From: Biomaibacter acetigenes | Lineage (GTDB): Bacteria; Bacillota; Thermosediminibacteria; Thermosediminibacterales; Tepidanaerobacteraceae | Assembly: GCF_003691585.1 (NCBI RefSeq) | Contig: NZ_CP033169.1 | Span: forward strand, 1 to 64,000 | Direction of reading: 5' to 3' | DNA length: 64,000 nt | In this document: positions 30,335 to 61,624 of the stretch, piece after piece | Position numbering within the stretch: the first letter of the stretch is position 1 | Layout of the letters: each line of letters starts with the position of its first letter | The notes under the pieces: model-generated | What the model was told of the DNA's origin: nothing | Databases searched by the model: none | The model's input: the letters and a program-made list of their open reading frames with translations, nothing else | Translations under genes and position numbers: made by a program

Positions 30335-30480
30335 TTGAGGACATTCCTCCGACTACCCGTATATCAGAAGCCAGATGTCAGAAGTCGGAGGTCGGAATAG
30401 AAGGATTTGCCTTTTCGGCAAATCCAACTTAATCTGACATCTGAAGTCCGACCTCTGCTGTAAGGAAGTGCGTCCCCTAA
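30335..30480. repeat. Foldback intergenic repeat, MITE-like
   Basis: About 146 bp with imperfect terminal inverted repeats (TTGAGGACATTCCTCC at 30335; complement of AGGAAGTGCGTCCCCTAA at 30463-30480). Inside are AGATGTCAGA (30373-30382) and GGAGGTCGGA (30387-30396), both complemented on the right at 30433-30442 and 30447-30455, and a central perfect hairpin GGATTTGCC/GGCAAATCC (30403-30425). The two inner pairs are in non-nested order. It fills most of the gap between ricT and the peptidase gene. Confidence 0.6.
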
Positions 30481-30499
30481 CCTTGAAAGGAGTGATGGT

Positions 30500-33652: not shown

Positions 33653-35350
33653 ATGCAGAAATTAAAAGTCGGTATTATAGGTGCGGGCAGAGGCGGCAGC
33701 GCTCTACTGGAGACATTAAAGGATTTTGACAATATTCAGGTAGTTGGCATAGCCGACATTGAACGGAAGGCTCCGGGGATGAAAATAGCAGGGCAGCGGG
33801 GCATAAGATGCTTTGATAGTGCCGAAAAACTTTTGCGGGAAAGCCAGTTGGATGTGGTTTTTGAGGTGACAGGAGATGACGGCCTGGTAAAAGAGCTCCG
33901 GAGCATGATCCCGGAAAGTACCACACTGGTGGAGTCCAGGGCTGTAAATATCATGCTTACCATTATCAGGGAGCGAAAAGAGCTGCTGGAAATAAAGGAG
34001 ATAAAAGAACAGCTTTCCATAATCCTGAACTCCGCCCAGGAAGGTATCCAGATGGTGGACCGCAACGGAATCATAAAATATGTGAATCAGGGATATACAA
34101 GGATTACCGGTATTCCCGCCGAGCAGCGTATAGGCACCAATGTGTTTGATGTGTCCCCCGATGGCGCCCTGGTGGAGGTGTTGAGGACGGGCAAACCCTG
34201 TTTAGGCAAGAGAAACAGGGCGGTGGGGTCCAATGCCGAGGTCATTTCCAACGCATCCCCCATCGTTGTAAACGGCAAGATGACCGGAGCTGTGGTGGTG
34301 TTTCAGGATATCAGTGAGATCATCCATCTTACCGAAGAACTCCGGCGTTCCACCTCTGTCATCAATGGATTGAAGGATGAAATAAAAAAGCTAAGCGAAG
34401 GCCAGGGGAAATTTGAGGATATAGTGTGTCAAAGCCAGAAGATGAAGAATATTATAAATTTAGCACAAAAAGCTGCCCGGGAGGACACCACCATCTTGAT
34501 CACAGGGGAGAGCGGTACCGGCAAGGAAATCTTCGCCAATGCCATCCACGCTGAAAGTCCCAGAAACGGCAAGCCCTTCATCAAGGTGAACTGCGCCGCT
34601 ATACCTGAAAATCTTCTGGAAAGCGAGCTTTTCGGTTATGAGGCCGGAGCATTCACCGGTGCCGGAAAGCTCAAACTGGGGAAATTTGAACTTGCTTCTG
34701 GCGGTACCATATTCCTAGATGAAATCGGGGACATGAGCCCGGTGCTGCAGGCAAAACTTTTAAGGGTTATCCAGGGTCAGGAAATTGAGCGCATCGGCGG
34801 CACACACCCCATAAAAATCGATGTAAGGATAATTTCCGCCACCAACAGGGACCTGGTGGACCTCATTCGCCGCGGCCGCTTCCGGGAAGACCTTTATTTC
34901 CGGCTGAATGTAATAAACATTCACATTCCACCTTTGAGGGAAAGAAAAGAAGATATCCCGGCCCTCACCGATTTATATATTAATTTCTTTAACCGAAAAT
35001 TTTATAAAAATGTGAAAGGGGTGACCAATAAGGCGAGGGACATGCTGATGTCCTACAACTGGCCGGGCAATGTGAGGGAGCTGGCAAACATCCTGGAGAG
35101 GACCATCCTCATGGCCGACGGGGAATGGATCACCGAGGAACTTCTGATACCCTACTTCGAACAGTTCAAAGGCCGGGAAAAGGCCAGGGGCGGCATACTT
35201 CCCCTGGAAGAAATGGAAAAGCGCATGATAAAGAAGGCCCTGGAGGAATACGGCACCAGCGTGGAAGGCAAGCGCAAGGCCTCCGAAGCCCTGAAAATAT
35301 CCCTGGCTACTCTGTATAATAAATTAAAAAAATATGGCATCCGCATATAA
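33653..35350 (+). CDS. Sigma-54 activator with N-terminal Rossmann (dehydrogenase-like) sensor
   Basis: Enhancer-binding protein of 565 residues with an unusual order. Residues 1-110 form a Rossmann nucleotide-binding fold (KVGIIGAGRGGSALLE, then VVGIADIE and VVFEVTGDD) like the start of a dehydrogenase. A PAS domain follows from about 120 (EGIQMVDRNGIIKYVNQG), then the AAA+ core with Walker A GESGTGKE near 285-292 and an intact GAFTGA loop, and a Fis-type helix-turn-helix (ASEALKISLATLYNKL). It may sense NAD(H) or a bound metabolite (inference). The ATG follows GGGAGGGG. Its targets are probably the genes from 35623 on. Confidence 0.88.
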   Translation: MQKLKVGIIGAGRGGSALLETLKDFDNIQVVGIADIERKAPGMKIAGQRGIRCFDSAEKLLRESQLDVVFEVTGDDGLVKELRSMIPESTTLVESRAVNIMLTIIRERKELLEIKEIKEQLSIILNSAQEGIQMVDRNGIIKYVNQGYTRITGIPAEQRIGTNVFDVSPDGALVEVLRTGKPCLGKRNRAVGSNAEVISNASPIVVNGKMTGAVVVFQDISEIIHLTEELRRSTSVINGLKDEIKKLSEGQGKFEDIVCQSQKMKNIINLAQKAAREDTTILITGESGTGKEIFANAIHAESPRNGKPFIKVNCAAIPENLLESELFGYEAGAFTGAGKLKLGKFELASGGTIFLDEIGDMSPVLQAKLLRVIQGQEIERIGGTHPIKIDVRIISATNRDLVDLIRRGRFREDLYFRLNVINIHIPPLRERKEDIPALTDLYINFFNRKFYKNVKGVTNKARDMLMSYNWPGNVRELANILERTILMADGEWITEELLIPYFEQFKGREKARGGILPLEEMEKRMIKKALEEYGTSVEGKRKASEALKISLATLYNKLKKYGIRI

Positions 35351-35369: not shown

Positions 35370-35430
35370 AATTTTTAGAAACACAATTATAATTTTTGGA
35401 ATGTCTTTTAACTCCAGTTTTCTAAAAATT
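35370..35430. promoter_or_regulatory. Candidate enhancer sites upstream of the FAD oxidoreductase gene
   Basis: AATTTTTAGAAA (35370-35381) is exactly complemented by TTTCTAAAAATT (35419-35430), and a third direct copy with one change, AATTTTTGGAA, lies at 35391-35401. All are 115-175 bases upstream of the predicted sigma-54 start at 35546, a proper enhancer distance. Confidence 0.6.
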
Positions 35431-35518
35431 CCGCTGGTATAGCTCAGCAGAAATTATAAAAACTAGAAATGCCGGCTTTCAGGGACTGCTTTCCGGATTG
35501 AAAATAACGCCCATCTTT

Positions 35519-35535
35519 TTGGCATCGGATTTGCA
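35519..35535 (+). promoter_or_regulatory. Sigma-54 (-24/-12) promoter of the FAD oxidoreductase-dapA genes
   Basis: TTGGCATCGGATTTGCA with GG at 35521-35522 and GC at 35533-35534. The start site would be near 35546, 77 bases before the ATG. The neighbouring sigma-54 activator supports it. Confidence 0.8.
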
Positions 35536-35622: not shown

Positions 35623-36840
35623 ATGAAATCTACCGATGTAGTGGTGATCGGAGGAGGGGTCATAGGCTGTTCCGTAGCATACCATCTCGCAAAAAGGGGA
35701 ATTGATGTCACCATCGTCGAAAGGGACGATATAGCTTCGGGAACCTCCGGAGCATGTGATAAGGCTGTCCTTCTGCAATCCAAAAACCCTGGGCTGCACC
35801 TGGAGATGGCCCTTGAAAGCGTCAAGCTGTTCCCCCAACTTCAGAGGGACCTGGATACAGATATAGAATTTAAAAATAACGGCGGCATGATAGTCATAAA
35901 AACTCAAGAACAGTGGCAGGTTATGCAGGGATTTGTAGAAAGGCAGAAAAAAGTAGGCCTCTGGGTAGAACTTCTGGGACGAGAACAGGCCCTCCAGCGG
36001 CAACCGGCCTTTGCACAGGATATAGTGGGTTCCACATACAGTCCCATGGACGGTGAAGTGAACCCCATTAACCTGACTCTTGGGTTTTTCCGCGGGGCCA
36101 AAAAATACGGGGCAAAACCACTGCTTTCTACGGAAGTCAGGGGTATAAAGGTGGAAAAAGGCAGGGTCAGCTCGGTTTTGACCACCGGGGAGGAAATACT
36201 CACCAGATTTGTGGTAAATGCCTGCGGTGTTTATGCACCGGTCATAGGCAGGATGGTAGGGATCGATATTCCTATTATCCCGAGGAGGGGACAGATAATA
36301 GTGACTGAACCGGTACCCCCTCTCATCCATGGAGATGTGAACTGTGCCAGGTATATAACCGCCAAGTTCAAACCTGAGCTCCTGGGCAATGATGAAAATG
36401 CCAGGCTGGGCATCGGGCTTTCACTGGGACAGACCGAAAACGGTAACCTGCTCATCGGGGGCACCAGGGAGTTCGTGGGTTATGACAGGAGAACCACCCA
36501 CAGGGCCCTCCGGGCCATATTAAAACATGCTGTCAGCCTGGTGCCGGCCTTGAAGGATATCAGCATTATACGCAGCTTTGCCGGGCTCCGGCCCTATACG
36601 CCCGACGGCCTCCCCATACTGGGAGAGGTTGAGAACCTCAAGGGGTTCATTATGGCTGCGGGCCATGAGGGAGACGGCATAGCCCTTTCGGCCGTAACCG
36701 GCAAAATAATATCCGAAATCATTGCTGACGGCCGTACGTCATTAAATATTGACATGGGGAAATTATCTCTTTCAAGATTTAAGGAGGAAGATATACATGG
36801 ATTTCGGGAAAGTCATAACTGCTATGGTAACGCCGTTTGA
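35623..36840 (+). CDS. FAD-dependent oxidoreductase of the glycine oxidase/D-amino-acid dehydrogenase family
   Basis: DAO-type flavoenzyme of 405 residues. FAD binding is by GGGVIGCSVAYHLAKRG (10-26) with VERDDIASGTSG, and the C-terminal flavin motif is LRPYTPDGLPILG followed by AAGHEGDGIALS. Relatives oxidise glycine, sarcosine, D-amino acids or D-hydroxyproline to imino acids. The family end is expected near SLSRF (about 36780); the frame runs 20 residues further and overlaps the dapA start by 44 bases. The ATG has GAGGAG upstream. Sigma-54 control and the DapA partner point to a catabolic imino-acid route; substrate not known. Confidence 0.85.
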   Translation: MKSTDVVVIGGGVIGCSVAYHLAKRGIDVTIVERDDIASGTSGACDKAVLLQSKNPGLHLEMALESVKLFPQLQRDLDTDIEFKNNGGMIVIKTQEQWQVMQGFVERQKKVGLWVELLGREQALQRQPAFAQDIVGSTYSPMDGEVNPINLTLGFFRGAKKYGAKPLLSTEVRGIKVEKGRVSSVLTTGEEILTRFVVNACGVYAPVIGRMVGIDIPIIPRRGQIIVTEPVPPLIHGDVNCARYITAKFKPELLGNDENARLGIGLSLGQTENGNLLIGGTREFVGYDRRTTHRALRAILKHAVSLVPALKDISIIRSFAGLRPYTPDGLPILGEVENLKGFIMAAGHEGDGIALSAVTGKIISEIIADGRTSLNIDMGKLSLSRFKEEDIHGFRESHNCYGNAV

Positions 36841-37675
36841 TGAAAATCAGGCGGTGGATTTTGCGGCTTTTGAAAATCTCATAGAGCACCTCATAAAAAC
36901 CGGTACCGATACGCTGCTCGTCACCGGTACTACTGGAGAATCACCCACCCTTTCCGATGAGGAAAAACTAGAACTCTTCAAAGCAGCAAAAAATATTGCG
37001 GGTACCAGGGCAAAGGTCATTGCCGGCACCGGTTCCAATTCTACCCACCACAGTATAGAACTTTCTCAAAAGGCGGAAAAAATCGGTGTAGACGGCCTCC
37101 TGCTGGTATCTCCCTATTACAACAAACCCACCCAGGAAGGTCTTTACCAGCATTTCAGGATGATAGCCCAATCGGTGGATATACCGGTGATTTTATACAA
37201 CGTGCCCGGCAGGACCGCTGTGACCATAGAACCGGAAACCCTGGGCAGACTTTCGGAAGTAAAAAACATAGCGGCGGTAAAGGACGCGGGAGGCAACCTC
37301 GATAAGACCAGCAAGACCAGGGTTCTGGCCCCGGACCTTACCGTCTACAGCGGCGACGACAGTCTTACCCTCCCTATGCTCGCCTTAGGAGCGAAGGGCG
37401 TCATCAGTGTGGCGTCCCATATAGTGGGCAAAGACATAAAAGAGATGATTGAGGCCTTCGAGAGGGGAGACCATAGGAAGGCTGAAGAGATCCACCTGAA
37501 GCTGTTCGATCTTTTCAAGGCGCTCTTTGTCATAACAAATCCCATACCTGTCAAAGAAGCCCTCAACATGATGGGAATAAAAGTGGGAGGTTTCCGTCCG
37601 CCGCTCACCCCGGCCGATGAAAAGACTAAAAAGATGCTGGAAGGAATTTTGAAAGCCCGAGGGCTAATACAATAG
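36797..37675 (+). CDS. Dihydrodipicolinate synthase (DapA) family aldolase/dehydratase
   Basis: Class I aldolase-fold protein of 292 residues, the normal DapA length. Motifs are GTTGESPTL (44-52), the Tyr pair in SPYYNKPTQ (107-108), LYNVPGRT, and the Schiff-base lysine in AVKDAGGN (Lys162). Sequence closely follows genuine 4-hydroxy-tetrahydrodipicolinate synthases of lysine synthesis, but it is coupled to an oxidase under a sigma-54 promoter. Relatives of this superfamily deaminate pyrroline-4-hydroxy-2-carboxylate in hydroxyproline breakdown, which is an alternative. ATG 36797 has AAGGAGGA; the frame continues upstream inside the oxidase gene. Confidence 0.82.
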   Translation: MDFGKVITAMVTPFDENQAVDFAAFENLIEHLIKTGTDTLLVTGTTGESPTLSDEEKLELFKAAKNIAGTRAKVIAGTGSNSTHHSIELSQKAEKIGVDGLLLVSPYYNKPTQEGLYQHFRMIAQSVDIPVILYNVPGRTAVTIEPETLGRLSEVKNIAAVKDAGGNLDKTSKTRVLAPDLTVYSGDDSLTLPMLALGAKGVISVASHIVGKDIKEMIEAFERGDHRKAEEIHLKLFDLFKALFVITNPIPVKEALNMMGIKVGGFRPPLTPADEKTKKMLEGILKARGLIQ

Positions 37676-37724
37676 GATTCATACACTACGGCAGTTTCTG
37701 GCCTGTAAACTAAAATTAAAGCGG

Positions 37725-37850
37725 CCCGGGATAATCATGTTTACTATAACCCAGTGAAAATTTCGCCGGTGGTTATCGTAGGGATTAATAGTGTGGTAAT
37801 ACATATAGAGTACAGGTGGTTATCCCGGGTGCTTTTAACAATAATCATGC
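37725..37850 (+). promoter_or_regulatory. Structured leader of the Na+/solute symporter gene, class unknown
   Basis: CCCGGGATAA (37725-37734) and TTATCCCGGG (37820-37829) form a perfect 10-bp outer stem enclosing 85 bases. Inside, ATAACC/GGTTAT (37746-37751, 37771-37776) can close a second stem over a small hairpin. Two direct repeats could compete for the same partners: GGTGGTTATC (37768-37777 and 37815-37824) and ATAATCATG (37731-37739 and 37841-37849). This looks like a switch-type RNA; I could not match it to a known riboswitch. Confidence 0.5.
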
Positions 37851-37930
37851 CATGAGAGGAGGGACGTAAGAAGGTTTATAAATGTAAGTTCAGTTAATTT
37901 TCATGAATATTACAAAAAGGAGGTAAATTC

Positions 37931-39370
37931 ATGAGTCTTACGGCAATTGTCTGGATTATCACTATTGTCTTCTGCGGCATTTTTCTATGGATTTCCTTCA
38001 AGGTTCAGGACTCTGCCAGCCAGAGTTTTTCCAACTATGCCATAGCCGGCGGAACACTGCCTATATACCTTATTTTATTTACGGATATCGCCACCATCAT
38101 GGGGGCAGGAAACTTCATAGGCCATGCTGCCCAGGGCTACAAGATAGGTCTTGTGGACATACCTTTCGTTTTCGGAGAACAGGGCTCCAAGATAATTTTC
38201 GCTCTCATATTTGCAGGCCTTGCCGGCAGATTCACCTACAACACCCTCTCCGAGATGATGGATGATCTGCTGGTGAGGGATAAAGCCACAAGAGCTATTG
38301 TGGGCGTCCTTACCGCCAGTATTATGATAGCCTGGGTAGGAGGCCAGGGCAAGGGGTTGGGCGACATTTTTGCCACCTTCACCGGTGCCAATCCGATTCC
38401 CATTATAATGCTCTTCAATGCGGTGTTTATCATATACACCTTCCTGGGCGGCATATATTCGGTGGTCTGGACGGACCTGTTGCAGGGCATCATCGTGGTG
38501 GTATTTGCTTTTATTTTCTACGGATTCGCCTTTGCGCCGGTTAATTTTTCTCTAGGTGTTCTGCAGCAGAAACTGGCAGAGGTGGGTGCTGCGAACCTGG
38601 GAACCCTCAGCAACGTGCCCTTTGCGGTTATACTCAAGAATTTTGTAACAGGATGTTTCGGCATCCTGGCAGCCCAGATTTACTGGCAGAGGTGCTTTGC
38701 CGCCAAGGATTCGGGCACCGCTCGAAATGGCATGCTGGTCAGCGGCATTGCGGCGGTTATTTTTGTGAGCATGACAGCCATGGTGGGCCTTGTGACAAAG
38801 GTGTTAAACCCCAATCTGGCAAATCCCAACCAGGCCATGCCCTGGCTCATGATGAACTATACTCCCACGTGGGTGCTGGCTGTAGTTTTTACACTGATTC
38901 TGGCCGCGGCCATGTCCAGCGCAGACTCCAACCTTAACTCTGCGGCGGTTATACTGGTTAATGACCTGATAAAACCCTTCGCTCCTAACAAAACAGATAA
39001 GGAACTGGTGAATTATGCAAAGGTATTGACAATAGTCGTAGGCATTTTTTCCACCCTGGCAGCCATTTACGCTTCCAGCATCATCGGCCTTTTCTCCAAG
39101 GCGTACACCATGGCCGGCGGCGGCATCGTGCCGGTACTTCTGGTGGGCCTTCTGTGGAAGAAGACCGGCGAACCCTTCACCATGGGCACCAAGAATAGCC
39201 GCATAACTCCCTGGGGCGCCCGCCTGGGCATAATAGTGGGTTCCGTTGTATCCCTTTCAAAATACGGTATACTCTGGGGTGTCGTCATTTCAGCCATAGT
39301 GACCATTGTAGTTTCACTCCTCACTCCCGATGTGTCTGAGCCGATAGCCCCGGATACAAAAGCGGCTTAA
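37931..39370 (+). CDS. Sodium:solute symporter (SSS family)
   Basis: Membrane transporter of 479 residues with about 12-13 hydrophobic segments. Family sequences include AGGTLPIYLILFTDIATIMGAGNFIG, the core GGIYSVVWTDLLQGIIV and AAAMSSADSNLNSAAVILVNDL, which carries the Na2-site serines. It imports an organic anion, amino acid or vitamin with Na+. Sequence alone does not give the ligand; a product related to the oxidase-dapA genes upstream is likely. The ATG has AAAGGAGG and a long structured leader. Confidence 0.88.
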   Translation: MSLTAIVWIITIVFCGIFLWISFKVQDSASQSFSNYAIAGGTLPIYLILFTDIATIMGAGNFIGHAAQGYKIGLVDIPFVFGEQGSKIIFALIFAGLAGRFTYNTLSEMMDDLLVRDKATRAIVGVLTASIMIAWVGGQGKGLGDIFATFTGANPIPIIMLFNAVFIIYTFLGGIYSVVWTDLLQGIIVVVFAFIFYGFAFAPVNFSLGVLQQKLAEVGAANLGTLSNVPFAVILKNFVTGCFGILAAQIYWQRCFAAKDSGTARNGMLVSGIAAVIFVSMTAMVGLVTKVLNPNLANPNQAMPWLMMNYTPTWVLAVVFTLILAAAMSSADSNLNSAAVILVNDLIKPFAPNKTDKELVNYAKVLTIVVGIFSTLAAIYASSIIGLFSKAYTMAGGGIVPVLLVGLLWKKTGEPFTMGTKNSRITPWGARLGIIVGSVVSLSKYGILWGVVISAIVTIVVSLLTPDVSEPIAPDTKAA

Positions 39371-39652: not shown

Positions 39653-39709
39653 TATGACAATACTTGTAGAAGCCGCATGTATTTATATGAAAGTAGAGGT
39701 AGGGCGAAC

Positions 39710-45990: not shown

Positions 45991-46007
45991 TTGGCACGTT
46001 TATTGCA
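45991..46007 (+). promoter_or_regulatory. Sigma-54 (-24/-12) promoter of the purine/ureide train
   Basis: TTGGCACGTTTATTGCA matches the consensus nearly perfectly: GG at 45993-45994, GC at 46005-46006. Start near 46018, 37 bases before the ATG at 46055. Confidence 0.88.
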
Positions 46008-46054: not shown

Positions 46055-47290
46055 ATGGCCCGGGTATTAATGTTAAAGTGCGTGCTTTGCGGCAGGACTT
46101 ACAGGGAAAGGGAGGTGGACTACACCTGCCCCCACTGCGGGATGGACGGTACCCTGGACGTGCTCTACGACTATGATGAGATTAAAAAACATTTTACCAG
46201 GGAATGTCTCGAAAAAAGCCGGGATTTTACCCAATGGAGATACCGTGACATATTACCTGTAAATGATGAAACTAATATACAGCCCCTGGAGGTGGGCTTT
46301 ACACCTCTCTATGACAGCGGGGTGCTGGCCCGGGAGTACGGAGCGAAAAAGGTGTACATAAAGGATGACGGCAGAAACCCGACGGCGTCGCTCAAAGACA
46401 GGGCCAGCGCCGTTGGAGTAGCCAGGGCTCTGGACTATGGCAAAAACACCATTGCTTGTTCCTCCACCGGCAATGCCGCCAGTTCTATGGCGGGATTTGC
46501 GGCGGTGGCAGGGCTTAAAAGTTTTATATTTGTACCCGAGAGCGCTCCGGAGGCCAAGGTGGCCCAGCTTTTGATTTACGGCGCCACGGTGGTGCTGGTG
46601 AAGGGAAATTACGAGGATGCCTTCAATCTGTCCACTGCGGCCATATACAAATTCGGTTGGTACAACCGAAACTGCGGCATAAATCCGTATCTGGTGGAGG
46701 GCAAGAAGACCTGCGGCCTGGAAATTGCGGAACAGCTGGGATGGGAGGCGCCGGACAGAATCTTCATTGCGGTGGGCGACGGATGCTGTATCAGCGGACT
46801 CTACAAGGCCTTTTACGACCTGAAAGCCCTGGGATTTATCGATCGTATGCCAAAACTTGTGGGAGTTCAGGCCGCCGGCAGCAGCCCCATATATCATGCA
46901 TTTAAATACCATCTGCCAAAAGTGGAATTCGTGAAACCTGATACCCTGGCGGACAGCATAGCCGTGGGGGCCCCCAGAAATTGGGCCAAAGCGTTGAGGG
47001 CGGTGAGGCAAACCGCCGGAGATATGGTAACGGTCACCGATGAGGAGATCCTGGAGGCTATGAAGGAACTGGCCCGGAAGACCGGGGTTTTCGGAGAGCC
47101 CGCCGGGGTCACCGGATTTGCGGGATTCAAAAAAATGGCAAAAGAACGTTATATTGGCATGGATGAGCGTATAGCCATAGTAGTGACCGGCAATGGATTA
47201 AAGGACATCGCCAGCGCCCGCAAAGCTGTAGCAAAACCGATCCTGGTGGAACCGGATATAAATGAACTGCTGAAGAGAATATGCTGCTAG
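46055..47290 (+). CDS. Threonine synthase-like PLP enzyme with zinc ribbon (second copy)
   Basis: Fold-type II PLP enzyme of 411 residues. A zinc ribbon (Cys9, Cys12, Cys25, Cys28) precedes the catalytic domain; the PLP lysine is in NPTASLKDRAS (Lys114) and the phosphate loop is SSTGNAASSMAG. It has the same domain plan as the enzyme at 21564 but is clearly diverged. It leads the sigma-54 purine train, so a catabolic or lyase role is more likely than threonine synthesis. The GAGGGAG site is about 13 bases from the ATG. Confidence 0.82.
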   Translation: MARVLMLKCVLCGRTYREREVDYTCPHCGMDGTLDVLYDYDEIKKHFTRECLEKSRDFTQWRYRDILPVNDETNIQPLEVGFTPLYDSGVLAREYGAKKVYIKDDGRNPTASLKDRASAVGVARALDYGKNTIACSSTGNAASSMAGFAAVAGLKSFIFVPESAPEAKVAQLLIYGATVVLVKGNYEDAFNLSTAAIYKFGWYNRNCGINPYLVEGKKTCGLEIAEQLGWEAPDRIFIAVGDGCCISGLYKAFYDLKALGFIDRMPKLVGVQAAGSSPIYHAFKYHLPKVEFVKPDTLADSIAVGAPRNWAKALRAVRQTAGDMVTVTDEEILEAMKELARKTGVFGEPAGVTGFAGFKKMAKERYIGMDERIAIVVTGNGLKDIASARKAVAKPILVEPDINELLKRICC

Positions 47291-47319
47291 CAGAGAATAC
47301 TTATCAGGGGAGGAAAATC

Positions 47320-48708
47320 ATGGATAAAGAGCTTGTTTGGGGACCGACCTTTGAAGAAATGCTGCACCCGGAGAAAATTCCGGAAGAGATAAGAAAAAAG
47401 GCGCTGAAGGCCAGAGAGGAGGCACCCCTTGACCCTATAAACCTTTTCAACATCACCTGGAAGAAGCCCGATGGCACACCGTGTTATATGGTGCTTCCTA
47501 AAAAGCTTACGGGGGTGGATGCCAATATTATAGTGCTCTACGGCCGGGATTTCCCCACGGGGTCCCATAAGGTGGGGGCTACCTATGCCGTAACCGTGGA
47601 AAACCAGCTATACGGCCGTATAAAGCCCGGAGAGCATACTGTGGTATATCCTTCCACCGGCAATTACGGTATAGGCGGAGCATGGGTAGGGCCCAGGATG
47701 GGCTATGATTCTCTGGTTATTTTGCCGGAACTCATGAGCAGGGAGAGATTTGAGAAGATAGCAAGTTACGGTGCCAGATACATAAAGACTCCGGGATGTG
47801 AATCCAGTGTCAAGGAGATCTACGATAAATGCAGGGAGCTTTCAAAGGACCCAAAAGTTAAGGTATTAAACCAGTTTGAGGTTATGGCCAACTACAGGTT
47901 CCATTACTATGTGACGGGAAACACCATAGCGGAACTGATGGCGGACCTTAAGTCAAAAGGTATCGGCGATGGCGGCTGCGCGGCCTTTGTTTCCGCCATG
48001 GGCTCTGCCGGGACCATAGCCGCCGGCGACAGACTGAAGGAAGTTTTTCCCGGCCTCAGGATAGTAGGTTTGGAGCCCATTCAGTGTCCCACCCTTTACA
48101 GCAACGGCTACGGAGACCATGACATTCAGGGCATAGGCGACAAGCATGTTACATGGATTCACAATTGTCTAAACATGGATACCCTCATGTGTATAGACGA
48201 TATAGAGTGCAAAAAGGGACTTCAGCTTCTGACAGACCCGGTGGGGATGGAATACCTGGCGGCAAAGGCGGGTATCGACGAAGAAGATGTCAAACAGATG
48301 GCCGCCATTTTCGGCATCTCTGGAGTATGCAATGTGCTGGGGGCTATTAAGGCCGCCAAATTCTGGCGCATGGACAGCCGCAGGAATATAGTCACCATAC
48401 TGACGGATGCCATAGACAGGTACCATTCGGTGATGGCCGAACTCGATAAAAAATACGGCAGGATGGATATGGCCGGGGCGGCGTTGCGTTACCATAGCAT
48501 ATTCCGTGGCATGAAGCTGGACTACATCCAGGAAGGCACCGTGAACAACCGCGAACGATGGTTCAACCTCAAATACTACACCTGGGTGGAGCAGCAGGGT
48601 AAGACCGTGGAAGAGCTCAACGCCCAGAAGAGCAATGCATGGTGGCAGCAGGAAAGGGAGAGAGTCTGCGAGATAGATAAGCTGCTGAAAGCGGTCCGAG
48701 GGTTCTAA
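47320..48708 (+). CDS. PLP-dependent fold-type II enzyme, catabolic, substrate unknown
   Basis: Enzyme of 462 residues, longer than cysteine synthase or diaminopropionate ammonia-lyase. The PLP lysine is in PTGSHKVGATYA (Lys84) and STGNYGIGGAWVG forms the phosphate loop. The C-terminal 90 residues (from SVMAELDKKYG) are an extension rich in aromatic residues. ATG 47320 has CAGGGGAGG; the frame overlaps the previous gene. It may form a pair with the enzyme upstream, as both precede the xanthine dehydrogenase genes. Function unknown. Confidence 0.75.
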   Translation: MDKELVWGPTFEEMLHPEKIPEEIRKKALKAREEAPLDPINLFNITWKKPDGTPCYMVLPKKLTGVDANIIVLYGRDFPTGSHKVGATYAVTVENQLYGRIKPGEHTVVYPSTGNYGIGGAWVGPRMGYDSLVILPELMSRERFEKIASYGARYIKTPGCESSVKEIYDKCRELSKDPKVKVLNQFEVMANYRFHYYVTGNTIAELMADLKSKGIGDGGCAAFVSAMGSAGTIAAGDRLKEVFPGLRIVGLEPIQCPTLYSNGYGDHDIQGIGDKHVTWIHNCLNMDTLMCIDDIECKKGLQLLTDPVGMEYLAAKAGIDEEDVKQMAAIFGISGVCNVLGAIKAAKFWRMDSRRNIVTILTDAIDRYHSVMAELDKKYGRMDMAGAALRYHSIFRGMKLDYIQEGTVNNRERWFNLKYYTWVEQQGKTVEELNAQKSNAWWQQERERVCEIDKLLKAVRGF

Positions 48709-48730
48709 GATAAGAGGTGAGGAGATTTTT

Positions 48731-49624
48731 ATGAAAGAATTCAATTACCACAGGGCGAAAACCCTGCAGGAGGCCCTTTGCTGGCTCCGGGACTTCAAGG
48801 GCGATATAAAGGTGCTGGCCGGAGGTACTGACCTGGTGGTGCGGCTGAAGGAGGATATGGTGAAGGAACACCATATCCTGGATATCAGCGGGATCGGGGA
48901 ATTAAAAGGGATTTACAGGGATGAAGGTTACATCCATGTACTCCCCCTCACCACCCATGCCGAGATCGTAGAATCCCCCGAAGTGGCATCCTTCGCACCC
49001 ATTTTGAGGCAGGCCTGCCTTTCCATAGGCTCCCCCCAGATAAGAAACCGCGGCACCCTCGGGGGCAATGTGGGCAACGCATCCCCCGCCGGAGACTCCA
49101 TAGCGGCTCTCTACGCTCTGGAGGCCCGGGTGAAGATTGTAAGTTGCCGGGGAGAACGGGATATACCCGTGGAAGACTTGTTTGAAGGCCCCAAAAAGAC
49201 AGTATTGTCTCCAGACGAAATTATATCCGATATTTACATGCCGGAGATGAAAGACGATGTAAGGGGAATTTTCAAAAAGCTAGGGCAAAGAGATGCCCTG
49301 GCCATATCGGTGGTCAATGTGGCAGTAAAACTAAAATTTGGCTCCGGCTCTAAAAAAATACTAAAGGCGATCATAGCCCTTGGCGCTGTGGCTCCTACGG
49401 TGGTCAGGGCCAGAAAGGTGGAAAGCGCGCTCATGACCGTTCAAATCGTTGATTTTTTGGACGCACCCGATTTTACCGGCAGGCTCATGAATATCTGCGG
49501 TACGGTCCGGGAAGAAGTGATGCCTATCTCCGATGTGAGGGCTTCTATGAAATATCGAAGGGACATAAGCGTGAACCTGCTGTATGAGGGCATGCTGGAA
49601 CTGCTTACGGGTGCCGGGAGGTGA
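48731..49624 (+). CDS. Molybdenum hydroxylase FAD subunit (XdhB type), first copy
   Basis: FAD-binding subunit of 297 residues that passes electrons from the Mo and Fe-S centres to an acceptor. FAD motifs are VLAGGTDLVVRLKE and GTLGGNVGNASPAGDS. The ATG has AAGAGGTGAGG. The matching Mo subunit follows after 4 bases, but no Fe-S gene accompanies this pair. Confidence 0.9.
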   Translation: MKEFNYHRAKTLQEALCWLRDFKGDIKVLAGGTDLVVRLKEDMVKEHHILDISGIGELKGIYRDEGYIHVLPLTTHAEIVESPEVASFAPILRQACLSIGSPQIRNRGTLGGNVGNASPAGDSIAALYALEARVKIVSCRGERDIPVEDLFEGPKKTVLSPDEIISDIYMPEMKDDVRGIFKKLGQRDALAISVVNVAVKLKFGSGSKKILKAIIALGAVAPTVVRARKVESALMTVQIVDFLDAPDFTGRLMNICGTVREEVMPISDVRASMKYRRDISVNLLYEGMLELLTGAGR

Positions 49625-49628
49625 TTTC

Positions 49629-51923
49629 ATGGAGGAAAATTACATAGGAAAGGGTTTAAAGCGCCTGGACGCGGAGGAAAAAGTCACGGGGAAGACTCTT
49701 TATATGACGGACCTGAAGTTTCCCGATATGCTCTGGGGGACAGTGCTCCGGGCAAAATACCCCCATGCAATTATAAAATCCATCGATACATCCGGAGCGG
49801 AAGCCCTACCGGGGGTGGAGGCAGTAATCACATGGCGGGATGTACCGGGGTTCAACGGCTTTGGCATTGTGGTACCTGACCAGCCGGTGCTGTGTCGGGA
49901 AAAGGTGAGGTACCGGGGCGATGCCGTAGCGGCAGTGGCAGCGACTTCAAAAGAACTGGCAAAAAGGGCCCTGGAGCTCATCGAGGTCCAATACGAGGAA
50001 CTGCCTGTAGTGGAGAGCCCCCTGGAAGGTGCAAAGTCCGAAGCACCGAAAGTGCATGAAAAGGGCAACATACACCTTCATACACACGTGAAAAGAGGAA
50101 ATGTCCGGAGAGGTTTTGAAGAGGCGGATATCGTAATTGAAAACACCTATTACACCGGCAGGCAGGAGCATGCCTTTCTGGAGACTGAAGGTGGAGTGGC
50201 AGTTCCCGAAGCCGATGGGTCCATATCAATTTATGCAGGTTCCCAGTACCCTTACAGGGACAGGATGCAGCTGGCCCGCTGTCTTGCCATGCCGGAGGAG
50301 AAGATAAGGATAATTTCAAGCCCCGTGGGAGGAGCCTTTGGAGGCAAGGACGAGCTCACCATACAGCCCATCCTGGCAATCCTGGCCTTAAAATCGCGAA
50401 AGCCAGTGAAAATGGTGATGGGCCGGGAAGAGTCTATGATTTCCTACTGGAAGCGCCATCCCATGATTTTGGAGTACAGGACCGGAGCAAAAAAAGATGG
50501 CACCCTGGTGGCCAATGAAATTAAGATTTATTCAGATACCGGTGCGTATGCCTCCCTGGGAGGGCCGGTTTTAAACCTGGCCATAGAATCCAGCTGCGGT
50601 CCCTACAGGATACCCAATGTAGATATAGACGGCTACTGCGTGTATACCAATAACTGCGTGGCCGGGGCCATGAGGGGGTTTGGAGTGCCCCAGGTGACCT
50701 TCGCCATGGAGACTCAGATAGACGTGCTGGCGGAAAAGCTCGGCATGGACCCCATAGAAATCCGCAGGAAAAACGCCCTGGAAGACGGCGATGTGGCACC
50801 CATAGGTCACCACCTGGTGACCAGCGTGGGAATAGGAAAGGTTCTGGAGAAAATCGAAAACAGCCGCCTATGGAAAGAACGGCGGAAAATGACAAAGGCC
50901 GATGAAGAGAAGCCCTGGATAAAGCGGGGGGTTGGCATGGCCATCACCTGGCAGGGTATAGGCCTGGGAGTGGGACTTCCCGACAACAGCAATGCCATAA
51001 TTCAGATGAAGAGGGATGGGGGCTTTACCGTAAGAGTAGGTTGTGTGGAAATGGGCCAGGGAGCATTGACGGTATTTGCCCAGATAGCCGCCGAGGCCCT
51101 GTACTGTCCCGTGGAAAATATAGAGGTGATAGTCGGGGATACCGGGGCTACGGTGGATTCCGGCACCACCACCGCCTCCAGGAGTACCTATGCCGCCGGG
51201 AACAGCATAATCCTGGCATCAAACAAGATTCTGGACATCATGAAAGAAAAGGCTGCTTCAATGCTCGGCGCAAAGCCCGAGGAGCTGGATGTAAAGGATG
51301 GCTTGATATTCCACAGGCAAAATCTCATACCGGGCCTTTCATACGGACAGATTGCCGGCGCATTTCAACAGGGTTCCGGGCTTCCCCGCACCGAAGGACT
51401 TTTTAAATTCCCCGTGGCGGATAAGAGCATTGAAGGGGCTTTCGGGCTTCCGCACCACATTTACGGTTTCTGCGGCCAGGTTGCCCTGGTGGAAGTCGAC
51501 ACCCTGACGGGAAAGGTGAAAGTCTTAGAGGGCCTCACTGTGATAGATGCGGGTACGGTCATTAACCGTAAAGGACTTGAAGGCCAGGCGGAGGGCGGTT
51601 TTGTGATGGGCATGGGCTATGCCCTGACGGAAGATGTGCTGACGAAAAGGGGCAATGTCATGACCCCTAATTTCTCCACATACATAATTCCCACCTCTAA
51701 AGATGCCCCGGAGATTATCGAGACTATCACCGTGGATTCCAGGGAAGAAACAGGTCCTTACGGGGCCAAGGGCATAGGGGAAATAGTCATGGTGCCCACG
51801 GCACCGGCCATCACCTGTGCCATACACCACGCCACCGGCAAAAGAGTATTGAAGATACCGGCTACGGCTGAATATATCTACAGTTTGCTGACAGGGGGGA
51901 GTCAGAGTGAAGACATTGATTAA
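49629..51923 (+). CDS. Molybdenum hydroxylase catalytic subunit (XdhA type), first copy
   Basis: Mo-pterin catalytic subunit of 764 residues that hydroxylates purines or similar heterocycles. Features are the hammerhead start (VTGKTLYMTDLKFPDMLWG), GGAFGGKDEL, the substrate Arg loop VAGAMRGFGVPQ, and the catalytic Glu in GAKGIGEIVM near the end. ATG 49629 follows GGGAGGTGA. The stop overlaps the next gene's start. Confidence 0.9.
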   Translation: MEENYIGKGLKRLDAEEKVTGKTLYMTDLKFPDMLWGTVLRAKYPHAIIKSIDTSGAEALPGVEAVITWRDVPGFNGFGIVVPDQPVLCREKVRYRGDAVAAVAATSKELAKRALELIEVQYEELPVVESPLEGAKSEAPKVHEKGNIHLHTHVKRGNVRRGFEEADIVIENTYYTGRQEHAFLETEGGVAVPEADGSISIYAGSQYPYRDRMQLARCLAMPEEKIRIISSPVGGAFGGKDELTIQPILAILALKSRKPVKMVMGREESMISYWKRHPMILEYRTGAKKDGTLVANEIKIYSDTGAYASLGGPVLNLAIESSCGPYRIPNVDIDGYCVYTNNCVAGAMRGFGVPQVTFAMETQIDVLAEKLGMDPIEIRRKNALEDGDVAPIGHHLVTSVGIGKVLEKIENSRLWKERRKMTKADEEKPWIKRGVGMAITWQGIGLGVGLPDNSNAIIQMKRDGGFTVRVGCVEMGQGALTVFAQIAAEALYCPVENIEVIVGDTGATVDSGTTTASRSTYAAGNSIILASNKILDIMKEKAASMLGAKPEELDVKDGLIFHRQNLIPGLSYGQIAGAFQQGSGLPRTEGLFKFPVADKSIEGAFGLPHHIYGFCGQVALVEVDTLTGKVKVLEGLTVIDAGTVINRKGLEGQAEGGFVMGMGYALTEDVLTKRGNVMTPNFSTYIIPTSKDAPEIIETITVDSREETGPYGAKGIGEIVMVPTAPAITCAIHHATGKRVLKIPATAEYIYSLLTGGSQSEDID

Positions 51924-53262
51924 AAATGCGGACATAATAGCCACCTTTGATGACCACATGAGGGAGATAAAGGGCGGGTGGATTTATATTGAAAACAATG
52001 TAATAAAAGACATGGGTACGGACTTTCCGCCGGAACTGGAAAAAGACCGGGAGATTTCCGGGAAGGGAATGGTGTTTTTGCCGGGGTTCGTGAACACCCA
52101 CCATCATTTTTACCAATCTCTTTTCAGGGCGGTGCCGGAGGTCCAGAGCGCCAAGCTCTTCGACTGGTTGGTTTTCCTTTACGAGAGATGGAAGAACATC
52201 GACGAGGAAGCGGTGAGAATATCCACTTCCGTTGCCATCATGGAGATGATGAAAAGCGGTGTAACCACCACCACCGACCACATGTACCTTTTCCCCAGGG
52301 GTCATGAGGGACTCATGGATGCCCAGATAGAGGCGGCAAAAAATACGGGTGTGAGATTCCATGCCACCCGGGGCAGCATGTGCCTTTCCAAAAAAGATGG
52401 AGGGCTTCCGCCGGATTCGGTAGTGCAGGAGGAAGAAGTTATTTTAAAAGATTGTGAAAGGGTTATAAAAAAATATCATGATCCCCGACCCTTTGCCATG
52501 ACCAGGGTGGCCCTGGCGCCGTGTTCCCCCTTTTCCGTCACGGAGCAGTTGATGAAAGACACCGTGGAAATGGCGGAAAAATACGATGTACTGCTCCACA
52601 CTCACCTGGCGGAAACAATGGATGAGGATGAATTCTGCCTTTCCATGTTCAATTTGAGGCCCGTGGATTATATGGAAAAAGTTGGATGGCTAAATCCCAG
52701 GGTATGGTTTGCCCACATGGTTTACCTTTCCGATGATGACATTAAGAGGCTTTCTGATGCCCGGGCTGGCATGGCCCACTGCCCCACATCCAACATGAGG
52801 CTGGGTTCCGGCATCGCCCCTGTCACCAATATGAAGGGTACCGCCATAAGGATTGGCCTGGGAGTGGACGGCAGTGCCAGCAATGATTCCGGCAATTTTC
52901 TGCTGGAGGTAAGAAACGCCCTGCTTCTGCAGCGGGTGAAATACGGCTCTGATGCCATTACCCCCCGGGAGGTGCTGCGCATGGGCACTATGGGCGGAGC
53001 CGAGGTGCTGCGCATGGATAAGGAGATAGGCTCCATAGAAAAGGGCAAAGCCGCCGACATCATAGGTTTTAAGATGGACCGGCTGGAATTTGCGGGAGGC
53101 CTCCTGGATCCCGTGGGGTCCCTGGTGCTCTGCGACGCTAAAGCCGTGGACTTTTCCATGATAAACGGCGAAATAGTCATTGAAGAAGGCCGCTTCACAA
53201 GGCTGGATGAAAAATATTACATCAATGAACAAAATAAAATTTCAAAGAAACTAAATTCGTAA
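51907..53262 (+). CDS. ATZ/TRZ-type aminohydrolase (8-oxoguanine deaminase-like)
   Basis: Zinc amidohydrolase of 451 residues. Metal motifs are NTHHHFYQSL, HTHLAET and VDGSASND; the fold and length match 8-oxoguanine deaminases and hydroxyatrazine hydrolases. It would convert an aminated purine into the keto form for the hydroxylases around it. GTG 51907 follows GGGGGAG and overlaps the previous stop by 17 bases. Confidence 0.85.
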   Translation: MKTLIKNADIIATFDDHMREIKGGWIYIENNVIKDMGTDFPPELEKDREISGKGMVFLPGFVNTHHHFYQSLFRAVPEVQSAKLFDWLVFLYERWKNIDEEAVRISTSVAIMEMMKSGVTTTTDHMYLFPRGHEGLMDAQIEAAKNTGVRFHATRGSMCLSKKDGGLPPDSVVQEEEVILKDCERVIKKYHDPRPFAMTRVALAPCSPFSVTEQLMKDTVEMAEKYDVLLHTHLAETMDEDEFCLSMFNLRPVDYMEKVGWLNPRVWFAHMVYLSDDDIKRLSDARAGMAHCPTSNMRLGSGIAPVTNMKGTAIRIGLGVDGSASNDSGNFLLEVRNALLLQRVKYGSDAITPREVLRMGTMGGAEVLRMDKEIGSIEKGKAADIIGFKMDRLEFAGGLLDPVGSLVLCDAKAVDFSMINGEIVIEEGRFTRLDEKYYINEQNKISKKLNS

Positions 53263-53291
53263 ATAACTATTTAAAGAAGGGAGGGATTGCT

Positions 53292-54140
53292 TTGAAACTT
53301 ACCGGTGTTGAAAAGTGCCTCTTCCCCGGCACCCTGGAGGAAGCCGCAGAGATTCTGGAGCATGAAGGGGATAATGCCGCAGTGGTAGGCGGAGGTCTGG
53401 GCATAATCACCGCCCGGGAATCGGCCCCAGGCACCCTGATTTTTCTTGAAAAAATCCCGCTGAAATATATTAAAAAGGAGCAGAACCACCTAAAAGTCGG
53501 AGCCAGGACCAGCTTAAGTGAATTTATGAATTCTCCGGTCCTGGAAAAATACCTTTCGGGGAAAGTCAGGTCTGCTATGGAAGGCATATCCACCCATCTT
53601 ATCAGAAATCAGATTACCCTCGGTGGTGCCGTGGCAGGAAGGGCGCCCTATTCGGACATTGTTACCCTGCTCATGGCGCTGAGAGCAAAGGTGGTCCTGA
53701 GGGGGCAGGCGGGGCAAAAGATACTTTCCATCGATGAATATTACGGAGATTTCCAGGACATAAGACGCCAGTATATCATAGAAGAAATCCAACTGCCGGA
53801 ATACGAAGGAGATTTTGCCTTTGCTATGGAGCGCTTTACCAGGAACGCCACGGATATAACCCTCCTCAATATGGCGGTGCTGGTGAAGATTGAGATTGGA
53901 AAGGTAGAGGAGGCCTCCGTGACGGTGGGTTCCAGACCGGAGCCCGCTTACAGGTTCCCGGAAGGCGAGGAGTTTTTAAAAGGAAAAGCGCTCTCAGAGG
54001 ATCTGGCAAGGCTGTTTGAGGATTTTGTCAGGGAAAAGGTGGATGTCAGGGGAGACTTCAGAATAAGTGAAGATTACAGGCGCCATGTCAGCGGGGTATT
54101 TGCCAGGAGGATAGTCGAGAGTCTAGGAGGTGCGTCATGA
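53292..54140 (+). CDS. Molybdenum hydroxylase FAD subunit, second copy
   Basis: FAD subunit of 282 residues, more diverged than the copy at 48731. FAD contacts are AAVVGGGLGIITARE and RNQITLGGAVAGRAPYSD. TTG 53292 has GGGAGGG upstream. Its stop overlaps the Fe-S gene. Confidence 0.85.
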   Translation: MKLTGVEKCLFPGTLEEAAEILEHEGDNAAVVGGGLGIITARESAPGTLIFLEKIPLKYIKKEQNHLKVGARTSLSEFMNSPVLEKYLSGKVRSAMEGISTHLIRNQITLGGAVAGRAPYSDIVTLLMALRAKVVLRGQAGQKILSIDEYYGDFQDIRRQYIIEEIQLPEYEGDFAFAMERFTRNATDITLLNMAVLVKIEIGKVEEASVTVGSRPEPAYRFPEGEEFLKGKALSEDLARLFEDFVREKVDVRGDFRISEDYRRHVSGVFARRIVESLGGAS

Positions 54141-54607
54141 AAGTACAGTATGTCATAAACGGCAAAAAAACGGAATTTGATATAAGTCCCGGGGATTTAT
54201 TGCTGGATGTCCTGAGGGACCACGGGTATTACGAAGTCAAGGGCAATTGTTATGGTGGAAGCTGCGGTGCATGCACCGTGCTCATCGACGACATTCCCTA
54301 TGCCAGCTGCACCGTACTGGCGGCAGGGGTCGACGGCAAAAGCATCACAACTATAAAGGGAATCGGAACTCTGCAAGATCCCCATCTTCTGCAGAAGGCC
54401 TTCGTCAGGTCCGGGGCCGTGCAGTGCGGGTACTGCACTCCGGGCACTATCCTTTCAGCCTATGCGCTTTTGAAGAAAAATCCCGACCCCACCGATGATG
54501 ATATAAAAAAAGCCATCGACGGCAATCTTTGCCGCTGCACAGGATATATACATCAAATAGAGGGAGTTAAAATGGCCGTCAAAATGCTCCGGGAAGGAGG
54601 CGAATAA
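54137..54607 (+). CDS. Molybdenum hydroxylase Fe-S subunit
   Basis: Two [2Fe-2S] clusters of 156 residues: the plant-type motif CYGGSCGACTVLIDDIPYASC and the C-terminal CGYCTPG with CRCTG. It passes electrons from Mo to FAD. The ATG follows TAGGAGGTG. It is the only Fe-S subunit for two Mo and two FAD subunits in the window. Confidence 0.93.
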   Translation: MKVQYVINGKKTEFDISPGDLLLDVLRDHGYYEVKGNCYGGSCGACTVLIDDIPYASCTVLAAGVDGKSITTIKGIGTLQDPHLLQKAFVRSGAVQCGYCTPGTILSAYALLKKNPDPTDDDIKKAIDGNLCRCTGYIHQIEGVKMAVKMLREGGE

Positions 54608-54608
54608 A

Positions 54609-56936
54609 GTGAGCAAATACAAATACATCGGCAGGAATATTGAAAAAGTGGATGCCTTGAGTCTTGCCACCGGCCAACCGGTGTTCACCGATGACGTTTC
54701 GTTGCCGGATATGCTATACATAAAGATTCTGCGTTCGCCCTATGCCCATGCCCTCATCGAGGAAATTGACACATCGGAGGCAGAACGTGTCCCCGGGGTA
54801 AAACTGGTGTTGACCTACAAAAACACCCCCAGGAACATCCACACCACTGCAGGCCAGGGATGGCCCGAACCCTCGCCCTATGATACCTTCATGTTTGATT
54901 ATAAAGTGCGGTTTGTCGGGGATAAGGTGGCGGCAGTGGCCGCAGAATCCGAAGAAATCGCCCAAAAGGCCCTGAAGCTTATCAAAGTAAGATATCGAAA
55001 GCTTCAGGCAGTACTTGCAGCGGTAGATGCACTAAAAGAAGATGCTCCCGTCATCCATGAAGAGCCCGAAATCAAAGGTGCCTATAATCCTTCAAAGAAC
55101 CTTGCTGCTCACATCGACGTAAAGATAGGCGATGTACAAAAGGGGTTTGAGGAATCGGACGTGGTCATGGAAAGGACTTATGAGACCCAGTATGTCCAGC
55201 AAACGCCCATAGAACCCCATGTGGCCATTTCCTACCTGGATGAATACGGCAGGATTGTAATAAGGACCTCTACCCAGGTGCCCTTCCATGTGAGGAGGAT
55301 AGTGGCTATGATGCTGGGGATCCCCGTGAGCAAGGTCAGGGTCATCAAGCCCCGCATAGGGGGAGGTTTCGGCACCAAGCAGGAAATTGTGGTGGAGGGG
55401 ATATGCGCCTTTGTCACCCTGAAAACCGGAAGGCCCGCCAGACTCCTCTACACCAGGGAAGAGGAATTCGTCTCATCCACCACCAGGCATCCCATGAAAA
55501 TTACCATGAAGCTGGGGGCCAAAAAAGATGGTGCATTACATGCCATCAGCATGTACGTTTTAAGCAATACCGGGGCTTATGGTTCCCATGCCCTCACGGT
55601 GGCTTCCAATGCCGGCTCCAAATCCCTGCCCCTTTACAACAGGGCACCCCATGTGGAATTTGTGGCCGATGTGGTATATACCAATCTCCCGGTATCGGGA
55701 GCCTTCAGAGGATACGGAGCTCCTCAGGCCTATGCGGCGGTGGAGCAGGCCATAGATGAAATGTCCTATGAGGTGGGCTTGAGTCCTGTGGAATTCAGAA
55801 AGAAAAACCATATCGTCACCGGAGAGACATCCCCCATATTCAGGGCCCTGGGAGAAGGGCGGGAAGGAGTTACTCAGTACATCAGGAGCTGTGCCCTGGA
55901 TGAACTCATTGAAAAGGGCATGAAGGAAATCGGATGGGATGCGAAGTTTGGAAAACACATCAGAAATAAAAGCAAAGTCCGGGGCGTTGGTATGGCCATC
56001 CTGATGCAGGGCTCAAGTATTCCCCTTATAGACATGGGAGCCGCCACCCTTAAGCTTAATGAAGATGGTTCCTTTAACCTCCTGTATGGCGGCACCGATC
56101 TGGGCACCGGCCTTGACACCATTTCCGCCCAGATAGTGGCGGAGACCCTGGGGGTAAAACCCGAACAGGTGATAGTCTACGCTTCGGATACTGACCTCAC
56201 TCCCTTTGACGTGGGAGCTTATGCTTCCAGCGGCACCATTATCTCCGGCGGGGCGGTCCTGAATGCCGCCCTGAAGATAAAGGAGCAGATCCTGGATGTG
56301 GCCAGGGAAATGCTGGAAGAATTGGATGCAGGCAGCCTGGTGCTGGAGGATGGCTGCGTAAAGAGCCTTGCCACCGGAAGGTCGGTGACATTGAGCGAGA
56401 TCGCACATCATTCCCTGTATGTCAGCAACCTCCACCAGATCATCGCCTCGGGTTCCATGGTATCTCCCTATTCGCCGCCTCCCTTTGCCGCCCACTTTGC
56501 CGAGGTGGAGGTGGATGAAGATACAGGGGTGGTAACTCCCGTAAAATATGTGGCAGCACTGGATTGCGGCACTGCCATTAATCCAATCTTGATAAAGGGC
56601 CAGATTATGGGGGCTGTGGCCCAGGGAATAGGCTTTGCCCTGACGGAGGAGTTCATCTTCGATGACACCGGTCGGGTGGCCAATGCCGGATTCATGAACT
56701 ATAAGATTCCGTCGGTCAGGGATATGCCGGAAATAGTGCCCATCATCGTAGAAACCTATGAACCTGCCGGTGTATATGGTTCCAAGGCTGTGGCCGAGAT
56801 AAACATGAACGGGCCGCTACCGACCATCGCCAACGCCATCTATGATGCGGTAGGCATAAGGATACAAAAGTCGCCCTTTACCCCCGAGAAAGTGCTGAAG
56901 GCCCTGAGAGCAAAAGCGGGCAAAGTTACAAAATAA
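54609..56936 (+). CDS. Molybdenum hydroxylase catalytic subunit, second copy
   Basis: Catalytic subunit of 775 residues. Features are VDALSLATGQPVFTDDVSL, GGGFGTKQE, the Arg loop VSGAFRGYGAPQ and the Glu in GSKAVAEINM. The last motif reads AVAE rather than the usual GIGE/GVGE; the glutamate is kept. GTG 54609 has AAGGAGG. It pairs with the FAD and Fe-S genes just upstream. Confidence 0.9.
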   Translation: MSKYKYIGRNIEKVDALSLATGQPVFTDDVSLPDMLYIKILRSPYAHALIEEIDTSEAERVPGVKLVLTYKNTPRNIHTTAGQGWPEPSPYDTFMFDYKVRFVGDKVAAVAAESEEIAQKALKLIKVRYRKLQAVLAAVDALKEDAPVIHEEPEIKGAYNPSKNLAAHIDVKIGDVQKGFEESDVVMERTYETQYVQQTPIEPHVAISYLDEYGRIVIRTSTQVPFHVRRIVAMMLGIPVSKVRVIKPRIGGGFGTKQEIVVEGICAFVTLKTGRPARLLYTREEEFVSSTTRHPMKITMKLGAKKDGALHAISMYVLSNTGAYGSHALTVASNAGSKSLPLYNRAPHVEFVADVVYTNLPVSGAFRGYGAPQAYAAVEQAIDEMSYEVGLSPVEFRKKNHIVTGETSPIFRALGEGREGVTQYIRSCALDELIEKGMKEIGWDAKFGKHIRNKSKVRGVGMAILMQGSSIPLIDMGAATLKLNEDGSFNLLYGGTDLGTGLDTISAQIVAETLGVKPEQVIVYASDTDLTPFDVGAYASSGTIISGGAVLNAALKIKEQILDVAREMLEELDAGSLVLEDGCVKSLATGRSVTLSEIAHHSLYVSNLHQIIASGSMVSPYSPPPFAAHFAEVEVDEDTGVVTPVKYVAALDCGTAINPILIKGQIMGAVAQGIGFALTEEFIFDDTGRVANAGFMNYKIPSVRDMPEIVPIIVETYEPAGVYGSKAVAEINMNGPLPTIANAIYDAVGIRIQKSPFTPEKVLKALRAKAGKVTK

Positions 56937-57061
56937 AAAGTCCCAAATCATGGGGAAGACTTCAGTCTGAAGCTTGACCCGGAAGATAAAATCAAGGATT
57001 TTCAGGATAAATGAAAAAATTCAATCGAGCTGATCTTAAAAATATGAAAGGGGTGTATTTA

Positions 57062-58444: not shown

Positions 58445-58526
58445 TCTGCAAGTCAAATCAGGGACGGTTCTTGAATTGAATCGATACCGATAATCAATCC
58501 TGCTGAGAGAAAGGAGGTAAAAAGAC

Positions 58527-61620: not shown

Positions 61621-61624
61621 TAAA

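Follow-up and report, generated by a model that had tools for sequence, protein, structure and literature searches.

Described systems and the setting of the locus

In Clostridium cellulolyticum, 28 of 33 intercistronic stem-loops lack the U-run of a terminator and, in the excerpted account of that work, stem-loop stability tracks the ratio of upstream to downstream transcript (PMC4423207). Intergenic stem-loops of this species are located at the 3' ends of abundant cistrons (PMC4423207; PMC10311766) and, they are reported also to guide cleavage (PMC10311766). A different kind of element is the STAB-SD, at which a bound 30S subunit halts RNase J1; the available extract describes that of Bacillus thuringiensis cry3A as an untranslated Shine-Dalgarno sequence, without a start of its own and far from the start codon, near position -129 of the leader (PMC4113751).

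We analysed a window of 64,000 nucleotides from Biomaibacter acetigenes (contig NZ_CP033169.1, positions 1 to 64,000), in which a predicted hairpin (37716-37838) and a start-less Shine-Dalgarno hexamer (37857-37862) follow one another ahead of a sodium:solute symporter gene. The hairpin resembles the clostridial stem-loops in its intercistronic place next to the 3' end of the preceding gene, in lacking a U-run as most of them do, in being gained and lost between species and in the protection of the upstream messenger that is proposed for it, as far as the excerpts of both reports go (PMC4423207; PMC10311766). It differs from them in being larger, branched and known from prediction only, and in belonging to a catabolic/transport operon of another lineage. 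Likewise, the hexamer shares with the cry3A site its position in an apparently untranslated stretch and its distance from the start codon, and no start codon follows it within the 22 nt searched, but it is a predicted site and sits at -74 between two cistrons rather than in a leader of the kind described in the extract (PMC4113751).

The genes concerned all lie on the plus strand. A gene for a sigma-54-dependent PAS activator (33653-35350), for which the closest NCBIfam model is PrdR, below its cut-off, precedes a sigma-54-type -24/-12 site, TGGCATCGGATTTGCA (35520-35535), which has one mismatch to the stricter pattern and is the probable operon promoter. There follow a FAD-dependent oxidoreductase gene of the DAO family (35623-36840), which overlaps the start of a dapA-like dihydrodipicolinate synthase gene (36797-37675; TIGR00674, 379.7 bits for a cut-off of 206.15), and the symporter gene (SSF; 37931-39370), whose Shine-Dalgarno sequence was read at 37918-37923. 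From the end of the dapA-like stop codon (37675) to the symporter start (37931) there is a gap of 255 nt. A site of the sigma-54 type precedes the oxidoreductase gene; in front of the symporter, none was found on the coding strand. Within 37400-38100, no terminator-like site was detected, the hairpin having no U-tract, and the single promoter-like site (37649-37678) represents a count no higher than in shuffled sequences. The gene order and the distribution of these sites suggest that the oxidoreductase, dapA-like and symporter genes are probably co-transcribed as a single sigma-54 operon.

By eye, repeated TTCTAAAAA/TTTTTAGAA-like boxes are found 5' of the sigma-54 site (35370-35475); such boxes also precede the symporter in the homologous loci L010, L011 and L015 and are candidate activator binding sites. 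A small AATTTTC..GAAAATT-like palindrome (37895-37912), common to L034 and L075, stands right before the symporter Shine-Dalgarno. Elsewhere in the window, TGGCACGTTTATTGCA (45992-46007) matches a sigma-54-type site exactly and lies ahead of a long cluster (46055-63007) of threonine-synthase-like, ammonia-lyase-like, xanthine-dehydrogenase-type, permease and amidohydrolase genes, which we take to resemble an anaerobic purine-degradation cluster.

A hairpin predicted between dapA and the symporter gene

The hairpin starts 40 nt after the dapA-like stop codon, with co-directional cistrons on both sides. Its 123 nt fold at -45.5 kcal/mol (z -5.5, 200 shuffles) into 42 pairs (16 GC, 20 AU and 6 GU): an outer stem joins 37718-37745 to 37809-37835, with 20 nearly continuous pairs followed by another short stem, and encloses two inner hairpins, one at 37746-37776 and a weak one at 37791-37806. 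The structural elements named by an earlier, sequence-only reading were thus recovered. The perfect 10-bp outer stem, formed without mismatch by CCCGGGATAA (37725-37734) and TTATCCCGGG (37820-37829), is exact, 85 nt separating its arms; the inner stem and hairpin are those just given; and both pairs of direct repeats were located, GGTGGTTATC at 37768 and 37815, most of the first copy (37768-37777) being held by the first inner hairpin, and ATAATCATG at 37731 and 37841. The interval then proposed, 37721-37850, starts inside the structure, the paired region beginning earlier, at 37716, and extending to 37838. The suggestion that the repeats could swap pairing partners was not supported: forced pairing of the second, 3' copy of ATAATCATG (37841-37849) with 37815-37824 costs 22 kcal/mol, and the cost for the 5' copy is 26 kcal/mol. 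A swap is therefore unlikely at equilibrium, while a short-lived co-transcriptional form may occur.

By themselves, neither the 10-bp stem nor the repeats stand out. When the 255-nt intergenic region was shuffled 2000 times with its dinucleotides preserved, 2.6% of the shuffles contained a perfect 10-bp inverted repeat, 18% a 9-nt direct repeat and 5.9% a 10-nt one; across the whole window there are 15 perfect 10-bp inverted repeats whose gap is at most 120 nt, versus 2-14 in 10 shuffles. The full 123-nt fold has the lowest z among 2132 windows of 123 nt (15 shuffles each), in a scan that favours it by placing the target exactly and the others on a 60-nt grid; the entire intergenic region has a z of just -2.05. 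The far better fold of the sense strand points to RNA: the antisense strand reaches only -32.9 kcal/mol (z -3.7), the 6 GU pairs forming on the messenger strand only. A manual count over the ungapped 33-nt arms gave 9 non-Watson-Crick positions, of which four are G-T and none A-C, as expected from selection on the messenger strand, although a single sequence makes this thin evidence. To judge from these computed features, the hairpin is real and probably works as an RNA.

Among the other folding outliers of the window, a strong inverted repeat at 48841-48963, within the reading frame 48731-49624, ranks third on the minus strand and fifth on the plus strand. A strong minus-strand hairpin (30361-30483, z -6.8), located between genes ending at 30278 and starting at 30500, is possibly a terminator.

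Relatives of the hairpin, the symporter and the start-less site

Rfam returned nothing for the hairpin at the gathering threshold over the whole window, chance matches only at E up to 10 over 37400-38100, and nothing over 18 homologous loci. The search works, since it found a T-box in the relative locus L004, and the earlier statement that the element matches no known riboswitch class stands. From two copies of the single sequence we built a covariance model, which detected the hairpin's own locus alone near the window (1/27 genomes at E <= 1) and in the phylum (1/398 genomes at E <= 0.1, with stricter filters), while none of 90 sources gave another credible match; besides the own one, these sets comprised 26 relatives, 397 genomes sampled from the phylum, which overlap with the relatives, and 89 other sources. 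At the DNA level, no homologue was found in 61 genomes, plasmids and the own genome, where the best other match (23 nt, E 0.75) indicates a single copy. The covariance search of homologous leaders proposed with the sequence-only reading hence yielded nothing to covary: the lack of covariation that was to count against that reading holds in the sense that no homologues were found in the sets searched.

Other candidate matches were set aside. The second match of the covariance model in the window, on the minus strand, is the same palindrome, and its match at L066 (E 6.4) is not credible. DNA matches at L002 and L003 correspond to the symporter ribosome-binding region and not to the hairpin; that at L004 is partial, in the opposite orientation and inside the T-box leader, and was taken as chance, as were four stretches of viral contigs that fit a 15-base pattern.

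The symporter is present in 14 of 26 class genomes at E <= 1e-60, and 80 named symporter loci were kept. Orthologues as close as 94-95% identity (L006, L007) have unrelated DNA between dapA and the symporter. The order oxidoreductase-dapA-symporter occurs at seven loci (the window, L006, L007, L008, L009, L016 and L017), and by our judgement of MFE folds each of the seven gaps contains a hairpin of its own. Over the whole region, sense z values are modest (-1.2 to -3.2); sense beats antisense in six gaps, the exception being L008, which is stronger on antisense, and in L017 the hairpin is followed by a short T-run. Terminator-like sites follow dapA in 0/7 loci with the symporter next versus 8/17 (hairpin plus T-run) otherwise, a weak contrast given that the loci are related (rough one-sided p about 0.03, by hand). 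Because the sequences differ completely between relatives, conservation of the hairpin rests on its position and on the reading of MFE folds.

No comparable hairpin was seen by eye at loci whose symporter comes straight after a sigma-54 promoter (L010/L035, L015/L049) or an oxidoreductase gene (for example L012, L018), so the hairpin does not travel with the symporter. In a genome of the same genus (G001, locus L116), a terminator comes after dapA, then a methyltransferase frame that, by eye, is like the window's gene at 39677, and an oxidoreductase-symporter pair is located elsewhere, away from dapA. The terminator and methyltransferase frame after dapA indicate that the window operon reflects a rearrangement around dapA. 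From sequence comparison, the symporter of the window's lineage lies between dapA and the gene that adjoins dapA in G001, and the hairpins at this place are predicted to be of a non-terminating type.

The STAB-SD-like AGGAGG at 37857-37862 is located just past the interval of the sequence-only reading and is the conserved feature of the leader. It pairs with the 16S anti-Shine-Dalgarno at -16.5 kcal/mol, and no start codon follows it within the 22 nt searched. We compared 28 symporters, hand-picked as the nearer Firmicutes-type homologues (29 were chosen and L053, too short, was dropped): a strong second Shine-Dalgarno (<= -13 kcal/mol) precedes 21 of them, and the remaining seven are without one; among 121 control genes from these loci, 6 have such a site (Mann-Whitney p 1.3e-9, the loci not being independent). 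An unpicked count of the exact hexamer pattern gave 19/77 loci versus 10/250 control genes, the 77 being the 80 loci minus L059 and L108, where the match begins inside the protein, and L067 and L095, which have no start, plus the window. The start-less site lies at -59 to -96 relative to the symporter start and occurs in three settings: behind a sigma-54 promoter, where the oxidoreductase gene ends, and behind dapA plus hairpin. Most relatives have an overlapping GTG, which is too near to the site to be its start codon; in a few (L111, L046), an ATG at workable spacing opens a 4-codon frame. The peptides of such tiny ORFs have, by eye, no common sequence, and in some relatives the upstream Shine-Dalgarno can be read as serving them.

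Competing readings and a proposed role

The region had been read as a symporter leader that responds to a ligand or an ion, and such a leader would now have to be an orphan riboswitch-like element restricted to the species. Its branched fold, long closing stem, repeats and lack of an Rfam match are compatible with this, and the Na+-sensing DUF1646 riboswitch is likewise an RNA element tied to cation transport genes in the excerpted description (PMC9337991). Known riboswitch classes, however, keep a conserved aptamer, the model of the Na+ class being drawn from 308 examples in the same extract (PMC9337991), whereas the hairpin has no homologue in any of the sets searched (26 relatives, 397 phylum genomes, 89 other sources), even ahead of the symporters of 94-95% identity. 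Unlike DUF1646, it has no Rfam match, no homologues and no terminator-type expression platform; its alternative pairings carry the 22-26 kcal/mol cost, no terminator-like site was found, and it lies between two cistrons instead of after a promoter. Having found neither a conserved, covarying aptamer nor alternative folds with an expression platform, we hold a riboswitch to be very improbable. We are decidedly doubtful, too, of an attenuator or protein-binding hairpin that would lower expression of the symporter by way of Rho, pausing or a bound protein, without a ligand-binding aptamer. The stem does lie directly ahead of the symporter with a GC-rich core, but it has no U-tract, and the relatives have no common sequence for a protein to recognise. 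Like the intrinsic terminators of related genomes, the hairpin is directly downstream of dapA; unlike them (T-tracts, 8/17 loci), it has no T-tract.

The ends of the hairpin, TTAAAGC at the start and GCTTTTAA at the finish, would suit a relic or neutral palindromic insertion, a miniature element with TTAA at both ends and no present function. So would its absence from relatives, whose gaps hold unrelated sequences, and a gap that was rearranged, since dapA of G001 precedes a terminator and a methyltransferase gene. We nevertheless consider an insertion unlikely: miniature inverted-repeat elements are recognised by several genome copies and this one is single, decay should give G.T and A.C alike whereas the arms show four and none among 9 mismatches, and the sense strand folds much better. 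Improbable as well, in our estimation, is a scheme in which a lineage-wide start-less 30S landing site, 59-96 nt before the start of these symporters, has been kept in all three gene contexts, hairpins being recruited afresh each time the symporter comes to lie behind dapA, and 30S occupancy sets the stability of the symporter messenger.

Most likely, the hairpin helps to process or protect messenger RNA rather than to sense an ion or metabolite. By analogy with the described systems, we see about an even chance that a non-terminating intercistronic hairpin protects the upstream messenger and that a STAB-SD-like site stabilises the symporter messenger. The locus fits selective RNA processing and stabilisation because a U-less hairpin is followed by a start-less site and then by the symporter's own site. 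Transcription would read through the hairpin since it has no U-tract; the long stem would give the oxidoreductase-dapA messenger a protected 3' end and would probably guide an endonuclease cut at or just 3' of the hairpin. The downstream piece would then be trimmed by a 5'-3' exonuclease up to a 30S subunit bound at 37857-37862, and this block would leave a stable symporter messenger, as at STAB-SD sites, so that the cistrons would be set to different levels. On the computed location, structure and strand bias of the hairpin, its lack of a terminator-like site and of homologues, and the conservation of the start-less Shine-Dalgarno, we infer co-transcription, cleavage, protection and 30S binding.

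A weak riboswitch lead is thereby removed and replaced by a testable case of operon tuning, in which a species-specific hairpin is combined with a conserved start-less Shine-Dalgarno. If the start-less site does stabilise the messenger, STAB-SD would reach beyond the Gram-positive cases described so far into a conserved gene family of anaerobic Firmicutes, in which hairpins would be renewed while the ribosome site is kept.
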